Both the position numbers and the translations under genes were made by a program. From positions 3,550,024 through 3,614,023 of the forward strand of contig NC_019689.1 of NCBI RefSeq assembly GCF_000317025.1: 64,000 bases of DNA, read 5' to 3'. Positions 39,236 through 61,584 of this stretch are shown here, in pieces. A model generated the notes under the pieces. It was given only the letters and a program-made list of their open reading frames with translations, was not told the origin of the DNA and made no database searches. Origin of the DNA: Pleurocapsa sp. PCC 7327. GTDB lineage: Bacteria; Cyanobacteriota; Cyanobacteriia; Cyanobacteriales; Microcystaceae. The stretch's first letter is position 1, and the number at the start of each line of letters is the position of its first letter.

Positions 39236-39571
39236 TTAAGACCAACCTTTTTCTGCTTGAGACAAGACATAATTGGCTACGTCATCGATTTCTTGCTCGC
39301 TCAAGCGACCCGCAAAAGCTGGCATAGCATTTTTTCCTTTGGCAATCTGAGTCTTAATTGCTTCTAGTGAATTCATGCTGTACTTCTCTAAATCGCCTTT
39401 TTGCAGCGTTTTCGCTGCATTGACTACATTCTTGCCGCCGGCATGGCAAGCAGCGCAATTGGCAGAAAACAACTTAGCTCCTTTGGCTAAATCTCCAGCT
39501 AGGGCAGGACGAGTAAAGGTTAAAGTAAACAATGCCAAAACTAGCAAGATTAAAGACAAAAATCTTTTCAT
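39236..39571 (-). CDS. petJ: Cytochrome c6 precursor
   Basis: The product has 111 residues from ATG 39571, which follows GAGGAGAA; the longer reading is rejected. A lumenal signal peptide ends PALAG. The haem motif is CAACH, and the sixth-ligand Met is in [13 protein letters not shown]. It carries electrons from b6f to photosystem I when copper is scarce. Divergent from petE, with two operator-like motifs in the 192 bp between their start codons. Confidence 0.97.
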
Positions 39572-39631: not shown

Positions 39632-39650
39632 TGTCAAAAGACAAGCTGTC
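39632..39650. promoter_or_regulatory. BlaI/CopY-type (PetR-like) operator, site 1
   Basis: TGTCAAAAGACAAGCTGTC reads as TGTC-N4-GACA-N3-TGTC, two overlapping palindromes. It lies 61-79 bp upstream of petJ and is the core of a 37-bp direct repeat (39632-39668) shared with site 2. GACA/TGTC half sites are those expected for BlaI/CopY repressors; identity with PetR is an inference. Confidence 0.65.
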
Positions 39651-39705: not shown

Positions 39706-39724
39706 TGTCAAAAGACAAACTGTC
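39706..39724. promoter_or_regulatory. BlaI/CopY-type (PetR-like) operator, site 2
   Basis: TGTCAAAAGACAAACTGTC lies 40-58 bp upstream of petE and differs from site 1 by one base. The similarity extends over 37 bp (39706-39742), exactly 74 bp (about seven helical turns) from site 1. Confidence 0.65.
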
Positions 39725-39763: not shown

Positions 39764-40144
39764 ATGTCGAAGAAATTAGCTGTATTACTTGCCACCATTT
39801 TGCTAGTCATTTCTAGCTTCGTTATTTCCGCTGCTCCTGCTGCGGCAGAAACCTATACGGTCAAAATGGGTTCGGACAGCGGCTTGCTGAAGTTTGAACC
39901 CGACACCTTGACCATCGAAGCAGGCGACACCGTAAAATGGGTGAACAACAAGCTGGCTCCTCACAACGTGGTTTTCGACAGCAGCAAAATGGATGAAGCT
40001 ATAGCCACCAAAATGTCTCACAAAAATCTTGTCTTCTCTCCCGGCGAATCCTATGAAAGCACCTTTGACGAACCTGGAGAGTATACTTATTACTGCGAAC
40101 CCCATCGCGGTGCGGGTATGGTTGGCAAAATTATTGTGAAATAA
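39764..40144 (+). CDS. petE: Plastocyanin precursor
   Basis: The product has 126 residues from ATG 39764. The signal peptide ends ISAAPAAAE. The blue-copper ligands are His in APHNVVF, and Cys, His and Met in [11 protein letters not shown]. It is the copper-dependent alternative to cytochrome c6 in the lumen. It is next to petJ, and both have the same operator-like motif, matching the known reciprocal copper control. A strong terminator follows. Confidence 0.98.
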
Positions 40145-48384: not shown

Positions 48385-48500
48385 GACTTCCTCCCGACGG
48401 TAAATGCTCCTTGCGTCGCATTATACCGTGGGCTTCCCAACCTCACGGCTGGGCATTCCTCCCCCACGCCACTTATCTAGAACAAAGTTCCCCGACAGTA
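48385..48500 (-). ncRNA. Putative omega RNA / right end of tnpB-type element
   Basis: On the minus strand, past the tnpB stop, lies GGAGGAATGCCCAGCCGTG, AGGTTGGGAAGCCCACGG and GTCGGGAGGAAGTCAC, the stem-loops usual at the right end of cyanobacterial IS1341-like elements. TnpB guide RNAs (omega RNA) map to this place. The exact limits cannot be set; with tnpB broken, it may be nonfunctional. Confidence 0.5.
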
Positions 48501-49721
48501 CGACGGCAAAAAGCCCGCCTCGACTTGAGAGGCAATTTCTTGCTTCTCCAGAGTCCCTGGATACGTTTCTATTCCTCGGTTACAGATTTCTTGCGCCGAG
48601 GCGATATCTCGATCTGCTTCATAACCACATTCAGTACAAACATGATATCTGTCAGATAGCTCTTTCCTGACTTCAGTTCGACAATTAGGGCAAGTTTGAG
48701 ATGTGCCGCGATGGCCAACTCGACCTACAAATATATTTCTTTTTCGAGCTACATACTCTAATACTGCCCTAAATTGTCCAAAACTAGCATCAATAGTATG
48801 TTTGCCTAGCATCCCTTTTGCCATAATTCGAAAATCACAATCTTCGACAAAGATTGTATTCGCCATATCGCATAACTTATGAGCTAGTTTGAACTGATAA
48901 TCCTTGCGCTTGAAATCAATGTGATTATGTTGTTTGGCTACTCAAATTCTTGCTTTCTCGTAGTTCTTGCCTCGTTTCATTTTCCTAGACAAGCGTTTCT
49001 GTAGCACTTTCAGCCGACTACACACTGTCTTGAAAAATTTAGGTCGCCCTTCGGTATATCCATCTGATATCGCCACATAAGACAACAATCCTACATCGAT
49101 ACCTATTGCACGACCATGAGGCAAAGGACTAGGAAGAGAAATATCCGATTCAATCGCTACTACGGCAAACTAACCTACTGCCTTTTTAACTACCCTAACC
49201 TGCTTGATAACAAATCCATCAGGGATTGGGCGATGTAAATTGATGGGGATTTTCCCTAGCTTGGGTAATTGTATCTGCCATCCAGTCAAAGGATTAGATT
49301 TGAACTGAGGGAACAAGAGAGATTTCATTTGCCCGTATTTTTTATAGCGAGGAAAGCCATAACCCCTTTTTTGGAAAAAGTCCCAAGCGTCGTGCAACCT
49401 TCTTATATTGGTTTGCAGCACTTGAGACGGTACAGAAGCAAGTTTAGGGAATTCTTTCTTTGCCTTGGGTAAATTGTTTTGCTGTTGATGATAGCTAGGA
49501 AACGGATAATCCGCCGCCATAATGTATTCTGATTCTAAACTACATCTATCAATCGGGCATTTTCTAGAAGCAAGCCAATCTTTTAGTTCCCGCAGCGCAT
49601 AGTTATAAGATATGCGACAAGTTTCTAGCCACTCGTTGAGTAGGTCAACTTGGTTGCTATCCGGGTAAAGGCAGTAGACATAGTTTAGTATTATGCCAGT
49701 ATTATGCCAGCATTCTACCAC
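48477..49721 (-). pseudogene. tnpB: tnpB (IS605/IS1341 family), two nonsense mutations
   Basis: A single frame from the GTG at 49721 is interrupted only by TAG at 49172-49170 (KKAVG stop FAVVAIE, where Tyr is expected) and TGA at 48944-48942 (EKARI stop VAKQHNH, where Arg is expected). All else is conserved: N-terminal CRISYNYALRELKDW, RuvC Asp in AIGIDVG, Glu in TIFVEDCDFRIMAKGM, the zinc ribbon CPNC...CTEC and final Asp in DRDIASAQ. The 5' end has an exact 11-bp tandem duplication (49687-49697, 49698-49708). An IS5-like element lies 25 bp upstream and may have cut off the left end. Confidence 0.88.
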
Positions 49722-57212: not shown

Positions 57213-58007
57213 ATGACCTCTGTTTCCAACTGCTTAGAATCCTTACGCGATCGCGCTCAATGCGCCTTAATTCCCTTTATCACTGCTGGCGATCCCGATT
57301 TAGACACTACCGCTAAAGCTTTACAAATCCTCGATCGCTCCGGTGCCGATCTCATCGAGTTAGGAGTTCCCTACTCAGATCCCCTCGCAGATGGCCCGGT
57401 CATTCAAGCGGCTGCCACGAGAGCTTTGGGACGCGGAGTGAAGCTAGAAGATGTCTTGCATGTAGTTAAGACAATCGGCAAAGAGATTAAGGCACCGATC
57501 GTTTTATTTACCTACTACAATCCGATTTACTATCGGGGAATTGACAGTTTTCTCCGACAAATTGCTGATGCTGGCGTGCGAGGATTAGTCGTCCCCGATT
57601 TACCCCTAGAAGAAGCGCAAACCCTCCTAAAACCAGCCGCCGAGATGGGGGTTGAGGTAACGCTGTTGATAGCGCCTACGACTCCAGCCGAGAGAATAGA
57701 CGCGATCGCGCAGCAGTCGCAAGGATTTATCTATCTCGTCAGCGTCACTGGCGTAACGGGAATGCGTTCTCAAATTGCCAGCCAAGTTCAAGATTTACTT
57801 TCGGCTATTCGCAGCACCACCGATAAACCGATTGGCGTAGGTTTTGGCATCTCTGCACCCGAACAGGCTTTACAAGTCAAACAATGGGGGGCAGATGCCG
57901 TTATCGTTGGCAGTGCTTTTGTCAAACGACTGGCTGAAGGAACCCCAGAACAGGGTTTAGAAGCGATCGCTCAATTTTGCCAAAGTCTCAAGCAGGCTAT
58001 TATCTAA
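57213..58007 (+). CDS. trpA: Tryptophan synthase alpha chain
   Basis: The product has 264 residues. [38 protein letters not shown] (catalytic Glu and Asp), [12 protein letters not shown] and [12 protein letters not shown] are diagnostic. It splits indole-glycerol phosphate to indole. Its end overlaps the end of the convergent secreted-protein gene by 8 bp. Confidence 0.97.
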
Positions 58008-58452
58008 CTTCAACAATTGCCACATCTTCGATCGCTTTGCCACGATGTATAAAAGTTTCGTGACCGTTGGCATTTAAACTAACTTTGATTTCGTTGCGTC
58101 CCGGTTCCAATCGGTCGAGATAATACCAATTCCCATAAAGACGGGTGATTTTTTTGCCATTAACGTAGAGATGGGCGTGTCCTTCTTTAAAATTACTACT
58201 TTGATTGACCTTTTCTGGAGCAAATGCAAAATTAGTTACTTTCAGTTCTAAATTCCATCCCTTCAAGGCATCCCGATGAACGATTAAATCTACTGTGGGA
58301 ATCGGTTGACCATCGGGAATTTCCATCATTTTATGTTCGTGTCCTTCTCCGTCTTTAAGCTCAACATTTCTTTGTAATTGAGCGGTTGCGACAGTTCCAA
58401 ATAATGTCAAACCAATTAGCGAAGCCGAAAGAAGCACAAGTTTTTGTTTCAT
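58000..58452 (-). CDS. Exported His/Met-containing protein, putatively copper-linked
   Basis: The product has 150 residues from ATG 58452; a TTG at 58467 is also open. The signal peptide ends TVATAQ. The mature protein begins with a metal-ligand-rich stretch [18 protein letters not shown], then a beta-rich domain ([78 protein letters not shown]). The [10 protein letters not shown] and [14 protein letters not shown] pattern suggests a cupredoxin-like or copper-chaperone-like sandwich, but no family is certain. It starts 11 bp after the TPR gene in one operon, with a petE-type operator upstream. Confidence 0.75.
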
Positions 58453-58463
58453 AAAAGAAAGAG

Positions 58464-59390
58464 TCAAACAATGATATTTTCAGAACCAGAAAAACTTTGC
58501 TGAATTTGCTCGATTAGCTTGAGAATGTGTCGATAAGCAACTAACTTTCCTTGCTGGCAAAAACATTCTGCACCTAAGCGCAAATCTGTTAATGCCGTTT
58601 GGTAATAACCGAGTTGATGGCGAAGCAAACCGCGATTGATGTATGCTTCAGCGCGATTGGGATCGTTTTGTAGGGATAGGGTAAAGTTGGCAATGGCTTC
58701 TCGATAGCGTCCTTGCCTCTGACAGATAAAAGCACGGTTATAGTAGGCTAGAGAATTTTTGCTATCGAAACGAATAGCGCGATCGTAATCCGCGATCGCT
58801 TTTTCCAAATTGCCCAAGCCAAAATAAGCCAATCCCCTGTCATTGTAGATAGTGGCGAGTTGGGTGCCATCGAGGGCAGACATCTGACGCAAGGCTTGAT
58901 TATAATCGGCAATGGCTTCTAAATATTTTTCTTGAGCGGCATAGGCTAGTCCTCGGTTATAGTAAGCCAGAAAGCCATCGGGTTTGAGTTGGATGGCAGC
59001 ATTATAATCTGCGATCGCGCCTTGATAATCGCCGAGTCGATAGGCAGCCAGTCCGCGATGCAAATATGCTAAATCATTTGTTGGCTGATGTTGCAAGGCA
59101 TGGGTGCAATCTTGTTTGGCTTGTTGGTAATCATTTAGATAAATGAGTACCAAACAGCGATTGCTATAGGCAGCTGCGAAATTAGAATCGAGTGCGATCG
59201 CTTTATCAAAGTCTAACAGTGCTTGTTGGTAATGTCCTTGTTGCGTCTCTTCAACACCTGCTTTAAACCACTCTTGCGCGGAGATCGGATTAATTTCTGC
59301 TGCTTGAGTAGCCCGACCGAAGAGGGAAACGAAGAGCAATACCGAAATCAAAAACTTGGCAAGTTTTCTCCGAGCGAATTGGGCAAGCAT
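58464..59390 (-). CDS. Exported TPR-repeat protein
   Basis: The product has 308 residues. A signal peptide (LISVLLFVSLFGRATQAAE) is followed by about seven TPR units, e.g. AYSNRCLVLIYLNDYQQAKQDCTHAL, AYLHRGLAAYRLGDYQGAIADYNAAI and AYYNRAFICQRQGRYREAIANFTLSL. The probable role is a periplasmic scaffold. It is first in a two-gene operon with the His/Met-rich protein. A TGTC-N4-GACA-N3-TGTC motif lies 52-70 bp upstream. Confidence 0.88.
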   Translation of the reverse strand: MLAQFARRKLAKFLISVLLFVSLFGRATQAAEINPISAQEWFKAGVEETQQGHYQQALLDFDKAIALDSNFAAAYSNRCLVLIYLNDYQQAKQDCTHALQHQPTNDLAYLHRGLAAYRLGDYQGAIADYNAAIQLKPDGFLAYYNRGLAYAAQEKYLEAIADYNQALRQMSALDGTQLATIYNDRGLAYFGLGNLEKAIADYDRAIRFDSKNSLAYYNRAFICQRQGRYREAIANFTLSLQNDPNRAEAYINRGLLRHQLGYYQTALTDLRLGAECFCQQGKLVAYRHILKLIEQIQQSFSGSENIIV

Positions 59391-59441
59391 TTTCCCTTTC
59401 TAATCGCGATCGCCCTTAATTTTCGGCAAGATTTCTAGCGA

Positions 59442-59460
59442 TGTCAAAAGACAAGCTGTC
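59442..59460. promoter_or_regulatory. BlaI/CopY-type (PetR-like) operator, site 3
   Basis: TGTCAAAAGACAAGCTGTC is identical over 19 bp to the petJ-proximal site at 39632 and differs by one base from the petE site. It lies 52 bp upstream of the TPR gene start. Confidence 0.6.
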
Positions 59461-60293: not shown

Positions 60294-60333
60294 AGGTTGC
60301 ACTGGGCGTTAAGTGAATGGTACGCTCGCACCC

Positions 60334-61584
60334 ATGAGAGTAACACGTAGAACCACCTTTCGCTTATATCCAACTAAATCTCAGGAGTCGAAATTGCATT
60401 ATTGGCGACGACTTCATAAAGATTTGTTCAAGGCCTGTCTTTACCACAGAAAGACAGAATATCAGCGTTTTGGGAATTCTATTAGCTACTATGACCAGCA
60501 AAATATTCTGCCAGATTTCAAAGAATGTTGGCCTGAATATAAAGAATTAGGTGCGCAAGCTTTACAGGCAACGGTAAAGGGTGTTGACTATGCCTTTCAA
60601 CGTTTTTTCCGTGGATTGAGTGGATACCCAAAATTCAAGTCTGCACGACATGATCGTGGTCGGACTTATCCAGGAATAAGTGGATGGAAAGCGCATACAT
60701 CAGGCGATAACGGCTACCTGGAATTGTCTAATTTAGGACAAATTCAGATGAGAGGTAAAGCTAGAACTTGGGGGACACCAACAACTTGTACAATCATCTG
60801 GAAACCAGGTAAATGGTATGCTTCAATCACTGTAAACTGCGAACCAAAACGAGAAACTAGCACTGGTGCTATAGGTTTAGATTTTGGTACTCACCACGCT
60901 ATTGCTTGTTCAGATGGAACAATAATTGCTCCTCCGAAATTTTTAGCCAAAACTCAACAAAAAATAAAGCAATTATCTAAGAGATTACGTCGCAAGCGTG
61001 CGCCTAATTTCAAAAAGAAGATTAAAGCATCTAAACGTTGGAGAAAAGCCAGGAAACAAATTAGTAGACTTCAAAGTAAAGTGACCAATCAAAGACAAGA
61101 TTGGCAACATCAAGTAGCTACACAGATAGTAAAGAGTAATTCACTGGTAGCTACTGAGAAGTCGAACATCAAAGGGATGACTCGTAAAGCAAACAAGGGC
61201 AGCCAAAGAAAACATCAAAAAACAGGACTCAATAGCTCGCTGTTAGATGTTGGGATTGGCAATCTAACTTCACTAATCAGATCTAAGCTCAGTGAATGTA
61301 GTGGGGTATTTGTTGAAGTACCTCTCAAAATTGCACCATCCCAAACTTGCCCTCGGTGTGGTTACAAAAAGAAAAAAGAGTTAGCCGAGCGTGTGCATCA
61401 TTGTGAAAACTGCAACTTCACTGCGGCTCGTGATGTGGCAGCATCAATGGTAATGCTCAATTACGCTTTGGGGTTAGGAACTAGCCTCTCAAACGCTGAT
61501 GCTGAACCTCTTTCTAAGACCCCACAGCATTGTGGAGGGTTTAGGAAAGTTCAGCAGGTGAAGCGTCAGAAACCTCGGAGGTAG
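60334..61584 (+). CDS. tnpB: TnpB RNA-guided nuclease (IS605 family), apparently intact
   Basis: The product has 416 residues from ATG 60334. RuvC residues are present: Asp in IGLDFGTHHAIA, Glu in VATEKSNIKGM and Asp in AARDVAAS. The zinc ribbon is CPRCGYKKKK...CENCNF. An N-terminal REC-like region is rich in Tyr, Lys and Arg. Length is normal and no frame break is seen. Related TnpBs cut DNA using an omega RNA from the right end. It differs strongly from the tnpB remnant at 48.5-49.7 kb, so the two are separate lineages. Confidence 0.92.
   Translation: MRVTRRTTFRLYPTKSQESKLHYWRRLHKDLFKACLYHRKTEYQRFGNSISYYDQQNILPDFKECWPEYKELGAQALQATVKGVDYAFQRFFRGLSGYPKFKSARHDRGRTYPGISGWKAHTSGDNGYLELSNLGQIQMRGKARTWGTPTTCTIIWKPGKWYASITVNCEPKRETSTGAIGLDFGTHHAIACSDGTIIAPPKFLAKTQQKIKQLSKRLRRKRAPNFKKKIKASKRWRKARKQISRLQSKVTNQRQDWQHQVATQIVKSNSLVATEKSNIKGMTRKANKGSQRKHQKTGLNSSLLDVGIGNLTSLIRSKLSECSGVFVEVPLKIAPSQTCPRCGYKKKKELAERVHHCENCNFTAARDVAASMVMLNYALGLGTSLSNADAEPLSKTPQHCGGFRKVQQVKRQKPRR

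Follow-up and report, generated by a model that had tools for sequence, protein, structure and literature searches.

Why does a site identical to the one before petJ also lie upstream of an operon for two exported proteins in Pleurocapsa sp. PCC 7327? A first-pass annotation of the 64,000 nucleotides analysed here (the window) had pointed to this likeness, and had suggested a copper-handling or electron-carrier-assembly unit controlled together with petE and petJ. In Synechocystis sp. PCC 6803, the targets of PetR/PetP are petE, petJ, slr0601 and slr0602, according to the available portions of PMC7896320 and PMC12382314. There, PetR activates petJ and represses petE (PMC7896320, as far as its available text goes), and the same commentary calls it unknown, in that text, how one regulator does both. 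The locus thus raises the question of whether the operon belongs to the PetR regulon and, if so, what task it would serve.

A petJ-type operator before an operon for two exported proteins

The two genes (Table 1) have the layout that had been claimed for them. The ATG of the second, which encodes a 150-aa protein referred to here as SMALL, lies 11 bases past the stop codon of the first, and both proteins begin, judged by eye, with a stretch resembling a signal peptide. At its other end, SMALL meets a trpA-like gene (named by eye) head-on, with an overlap of 8 bases. The HEHKMM segment singled out in the first-pass annotation is indeed present in SMALL, and its two histidines are kept in 48/60 and 58/60 relatives, respectively. 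Elsewhere in the window lie a transposase-like ORF of 423 aa that ends in a zinc ribbon and is TnpB-like by eye (60313-61584), and what appears by eye to be a shorter look-alike of it (48477-48866).

Table 1. Positions of the operators and genes under discussion, numbered from the first letter of the window
Feature	Position	Strand	Remark
Exported 150-aa protein (SMALL), His-site beta-sandwich, operon gene 2	58000..58452	-	
Exported TPR protein, 308 aa, operon gene 1	58464..59390	-	
PetR-type operator	59442..59460	+	antisense to the TPR/150-aa operon downstream; from motif scans and conservation
petJ, cytochrome c6	39236..39571	-	
Operator identical to the 59442 site, before petJ	39632..39650	+	antisense to petJ
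Operator with one difference, before petE	39706..39724	+	sense to petE
petE, plastocyanin	39764..40144	+	

The 19-mer TGTCAAAAGACAAGCTGTC at 59442-59460 recurs, with all 19 letters equal, at 39632-39650 in the petJ-petE spacer, exactly as had been stated. An 18-mer scan at up to 3 mismatches gave 3 matches in the window against 0.03 expected from shuffles, in agreement with the earlier view that the copies at petJ and petE are the only others in 64 kb and that chance is unlikely. Nor did a genome-wide motif scan, which the first-pass annotation had proposed, bring up the many random copies of the 19-mer that it had named as grounds for doubt: the 4,986,817 bases of the genome hold 2 exact copies, 3 at no more than 1 mismatch and 5 at no more than 3, and the reversed pattern gives 1 match at the last of these thresholds. 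With the 3-base spacer left free, the same genome yields 4 perfect cores and one core with 1 mismatch. Core matches at 3 mismatches were set aside as noise (37 in all vs 45 for the reversed pattern), and a first guessed operator pattern had no matches in this genome. The distance from site to gene is 51 bases for the TPR ATG, 60 for petJ and 39 for petE; in the pooled loci described below, the medians for the latter two are 64 and 84.

Further sites of this kind occur in the genome. At C1:1402557 (L004:870-1519), a perfect core, TGTCAAAAGACACTATGTC, precedes a 108-aa ORF at a distance of 305 bases and, as at petJ, in antisense orientation; the ORF has a sub-threshold PepSY_TM match. At C1:3195487 (L212:931-1519), a one-mismatch site lies antisense before a gene for an exported DsrE-family protein and has a DUF4198 protein on its other side. 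The genes at both places are possible further PetR targets, and the TPR/SMALL operon is not the sole additional candidate in its own genome. Sites with 2 mismatches (L213-L215, L005) were dropped, as none stands before a recognised relative of the regulon genes.

Conservation and orientation of the operator

An alignment of 26 SMALL relatives was used to fetch 80 named loci, the best 80 of 361. Scanning their 869,461 bases with TGTCAAAAGACANNNTGTC, spacer free and with at most 2 mismatches allowed, gave 66 matches, compared with 0 for the reversed pattern. One site lies upstream of SMALL and antisense to it in 64 of these best 80 loci, and another two sites (L039, L104) are downstream of it; 15 of the 80 have no site at this threshold. 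Because the operator is conserved in this way across distant cyanobacteria, the proposed co-control of the operon with petE and petJ is strongly supported on sequence grounds. By the same token, it is very improbable that the 59442 site is not a working PetR operator and owes its likeness to the petJ site to chance or to being a relic: the 64 upstream sites share one orientation, reversed matches are absent from all 80 loci, and the 19-mer is present in two exact copies in its own genome.

Pooling sites from loci selected partly by protein and partly by the operator pattern itself, we assigned 139 distinct sites to a query gene within 450 bases; 18 were left unassigned. The consensus of the assigned sites is TGTCAAAAGACA-nnn-TGTCAAACTT, a layout of two TGTCAAA repeats running in the same direction with GACA between them. 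Sites assigned to petJ (32), SMALL (52), the TPR gene (3), a TonB-dependent receptor (15), a DsbD_2 protein (20) or an slr0601-like gene (7) are antisense to their gene in 129 of 129 cases, and those assigned to petE are sense in 5 of 5. For five sites petR is the nearest gene, in sense orientation; they lie in divergent spacers and are antisense to the petJ, SMALL or TPR gene opposite.

When petJ loci are taken by themselves (n=21), 12 have a site at up to 2 mismatches, 4 more have one at 3, and 5 have none. Among the 20 loci retrieved with petE as the query, the last of which is a weak match, one has a site within 3 mismatches, so that for petE the orientation rule depends on the 5 pooled cases. 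In most of these petE loci (L143-L162) no site can be recognised. A frequent feature there is a second cytochrome c6-like gene downstream of petE and in the same orientation.

In Synechocystis, petJ is activated and petE repressed by PetR; applied to the operon, the rule therefore predicts joint induction with petJ at low copper. We suspect, as part of the wider copper-switch reading graded below, that it is the orientation of the operator that decides between activation and repression by PetR; if the rule holds, it would bear on the regulator's dual behaviour. Thin support from elsewhere comes from Slr0601, which at high pH drops along with cytochrome c6 in the available text of PMC12382314.

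Co-occurrence with PetR

The Pleurocapsa genome contains a Penicillinase_R (BlaI-type) gene 71% identical to the petR that stands beside petJ and SMALL in another genome (locus L012). It is followed by an M48/M56-like peptidase gene, which we call petP-like and whose M56 score is below the Pfam cut-off; the pair stands elsewhere in the genome, away from the window's operon. A search of 292 genomes from the phylum detected SMALL in 27. PetR (E <= 1e-30) is present in 22 of these 27 and in 63 of the 265 others, an association with a Fisher p of 4e-9 when genomes are counted without kinship correction. In the short stretch read upstream of SMALL, a site was found in 13 of the 22 SMALL genomes with PetR vs 0 of the 5 without it (p 0.04), and 9 of the 22 have no site in that stretch. 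Taking these comparative data together, we consider the operon to be very probably under PetR control, with PetR predicted to bind at 59442-59460.

A wider set of genes with the operator

In two genomes, a second site lies downstream of petJ and before a gene for a TonB-dependent receptor. A search of 146 genomes gave 20 close relatives of this receptor; in 16 of these 20 loci the site is upstream and antisense, at 50-303 bases. Its NCBIfam matches, all below the cut-off, are B12, siderophore and haem receptors. A protein combining a DsbD_2 and a ferric-reductase domain (PF13386 and PF01794) occurs in 36 of the 146 genomes, with the site upstream and antisense in 22 of the 30 loci fetched; in two of these, SMALL lies in between. 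The reversed operator pattern has 0 matches in the 224,238 bases of the receptor and DsbD_2 loci. In the Pleurocapsa genome itself, the 146-genome search found no close TonB receptor at the threshold used, and the DsbD_2 gene is without a site; thus, the full route is absent here in the form seen elsewhere. A perfect core in genome G105 (L121:1501-2446) stands about 55 bases before a gene for an all3515-family protein, antisense to it, with another ORF following. NCBIfam describes this family as a Zur-repressed PEP-CTERM protein, and the site possibly links PetR to a zinc-regulated family.

Several of the same genes are neighbours of SMALL. In its 80 loci, petJ lies upstream on the same strand in 15, a divergent petR upstream in 13, a TPR relative upstream in 9 and the DsbD_2/ferric-reductase gene downstream in 30; none of the searched neighbours is present in 35. 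The TPR gene and SMALL are also adjacent in three loci (L022, L025 and L026, the last of which has petJ as well) where neither PetR nor a site was found, so the linkage of TPR and SMALL may be independent of PetR, and the association fits a tie to cytochrome c6 itself.

The linkage of petJ, TPR and SMALL, whole or in part, without PetR and the naming of DsbD_2 by Pfam as a cytochrome c biogenesis region together make cytochrome c6 biogenesis the main alternative to a copper task. TPR and SMALL, under the control of PetR, would then mature, supply or position the cytochrome c6 that replaces plastocyanin, the DsbD_2 protein would provide reducing power for haem attachment, the TonB receptor would bring in iron or haem, and the cargo would be haem, iron or apo-cytochrome rather than copper. 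The 15 loci with petJ upstream of SMALL are in line with such a role, as are the sub-threshold matches of the receptor and the 7 of 21 petJ loci where the next gene recognised on the petJ strand encodes a TPR relative. However, petJ is not near SMALL in most of the 80 loci, and the DsbD_2 protein that follows SMALL in 30 of them carries a ferric-reductase part too.

The 150-aa family

SMALL matches no family above the cut-off in Pfam or NCBIfam. Structure prediction gives its residues 41-150 as a confident all-beta domain, a beta-sandwich with a pLDDT of about 96-98. The top Foldseek rows for it are Ig/FnIII-like domains, often in large enzymes, and SoxYZ, at a query TM of about 0.3-0.4, and no solved structure matched at E <= 0.001. 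The cupredoxin-like fold that the first-pass annotation had put forward for checking did not emerge: no cupredoxin is among the best 50 of 1046 Foldseek matches, and the matches listed are mostly Ig/FnIII-like or parts of large proteins. A match of the family profile to sirohydrochlorin cobaltochelatase among solved structures (E 0.034) was rejected as being at chance level.

The ligands of type 1 copper are Cys, His, His and Met. SMALL differs from cupredoxins in this respect, as its core has no cysteine in any of the 60 sequences compared; His92, His94 and His131 are invariant in all 60, and His40 is kept in 58. The N-terminal stretch before the core has a median of 6 histidines, with 2 in the window's protein. 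SMALL would represent an undescribed family of exported His-site proteins whose predicted fold bears a weak likeness to Ig/FnIII sandwiches, and it may bind metal through this site, with copper as the presumed ligand. For the proposed role in cytochrome c6 biogenesis, the cysteine-free core and the lack of a haem-binding motif at the three invariant histidines are further difficulties, and we regard that role as rather unlikely.

Among the 80 loci, which are the best of 361, that of Hydrococcus rivularis is the closest to SMALL (98%). Relatives also lie on 79 plasmid records, all alphaproteobacterial by the names listed. Of four such plasmid neighbourhoods, DUF1636 is present in two, in one of them together with cbtAB and a copper-binding protein; the other two contain none of these.

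The plasmid relatives also bear on a different possibility, namely that PetR controls the operon for some other task at the carrier switch, for example in contacts of the photosystem or cytochrome b6f, as proposed for Slr0602. TPR proteins are often scaffolds, which would suit such a task. In the available portion of PMC7896320, Slr0602 interacts with photosynthetic proteins and a post-translational adjustment is suggested. On the other side stand the occurrence of SMALL relatives on plasmids of alphaproteobacteria, where no carrier switch exists, the invariant histidines of SMALL and its linkage to a reductase-like protein, and a task of this sort therefore seems improbable to us.

A potential role in copper acquisition

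The chances appear about evenly balanced that the operon is a PetR/PetP target serving copper scavenging. A low-copper-induced arm of PetRP for copper acquisition, with SMALL as its His-site metal binder, is in our estimation the best reading, if not the only one, and we would hold to it with the same even confidence. According to what has been published for Synechocystis, the protease PetP is inactive when copper is scarce and PetR persists. PetR would then bind TGTCAAAAGACAnnnTGTC, 51 bp before the first start codon and in the petJ orientation, and switch the operon on together with petJ, while petE, whose site is turned round, would be switched off. Once exported, SMALL would bind copper via the three invariant histidines on its small beta-sandwich, assisted in many relatives by the His-rich N-terminal stretch, and the exported TPR protein would act as its partner or scaffold. 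In other genomes, SMALL may hand the metal on, working with the DsbD_2/ferric-reductase membrane protein and the TonB outer-membrane receptor under the same operator. This direction of metal flow and the role given to the TPR protein are what we infer from the arrangement. Of the original proposal, then, a copper-handling role remains plausible, given the neighbouring petJ, petR-petP and DsbD_2/ferric-reductase genes and the TonB receptor gene that shares the operator, and the cupredoxin fold finds no support among the matches listed.

More broadly, we tentatively suggest, with a confidence that falls slightly short of even, that PetR/PetP acts as a master switch of copper acquisition in many cyanobacteria that do not belong to the Synechocystis group, swapping plastocyanin for cytochrome c6 and at the same time turning on the TonB receptor, SMALL, the DsbD_2/ferric-reductase protein and the TPR protein. 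How cyanobacteria take up copper for plastocyanin under scarcity is poorly known. A 2023 review states, in its available text, that no response connected with copper homeostasis lies downstream of PetRP (PMC10141476); a conserved operator before candidate uptake genes would change that view and names the genes to delete.

Comparison with known systems

In a mostly open-access literature, we came across no publication dealing with SMALL, with the TPR gene or with a TonB receptor under PetR control; a published motif analysis of PetR sites may exist. CopM of Synechocystis is comparable to SMALL as a periplasmic copper-related protein. According to the available part of PMC4182526, however, CopM is induced with copRS by copper excess, whereas the site of the SMALL operon has the low-copper orientation of petJ; it is by their described regulation that the two are set apart. 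The PetR-linked receptor finds a parallel in IacT, a TonB-dependent iron/copper transporter of the cyanobacterium Anabaena sp. PCC 7120 (PMC8141849 and PMC10878165, in the portions available). A comparison through published primers did not establish that the two are the same: none of the IacT primers had a match with 3 or fewer mismatches in the receptor loci.

The closest parallel is the PetRP regulon of Synechocystis, in which the operator likewise stands by petE and petJ, PetR is of BlaI type, PetP is of BlaR1 type and targets are few (available text of PMC7896320 and PMC12382314). As published in those portions, that regulon does not include the TPR/SMALL operon, the TonB receptor or the DsbD_2 protein, and its two further targets belong to other families, one a Gly/Met-repeat protein with a His tail and the other a 138-aa protein. 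Nine genomes belonging to the window's own family have sites by petJ or petE and some by nothing recognised; in 7 of the 9, a site lies by a Gly/Met-repeat protein with a His-containing tail, of a family that matches Pfam GLTT. The gene before the site in one locus (L119) matches the solved Slr0600 chain over its whole length, at 728 bits, which makes the two genes that follow the expected counterparts of slr0601 and slr0602, judging from gene order and consecutive locus numbers. Kinship of the TPR gene and SMALL with slr0601/slr0602-type genes was rejected, as tblastn of both gave no match to the genes after the Slr0600-matching gene. In common with this regulon, the Pleurocapsa genome has the operator by its carrier genes, with the identical 19-mer at both petJ and the TPR/SMALL operon, and a petR and petP-like pair of its own.
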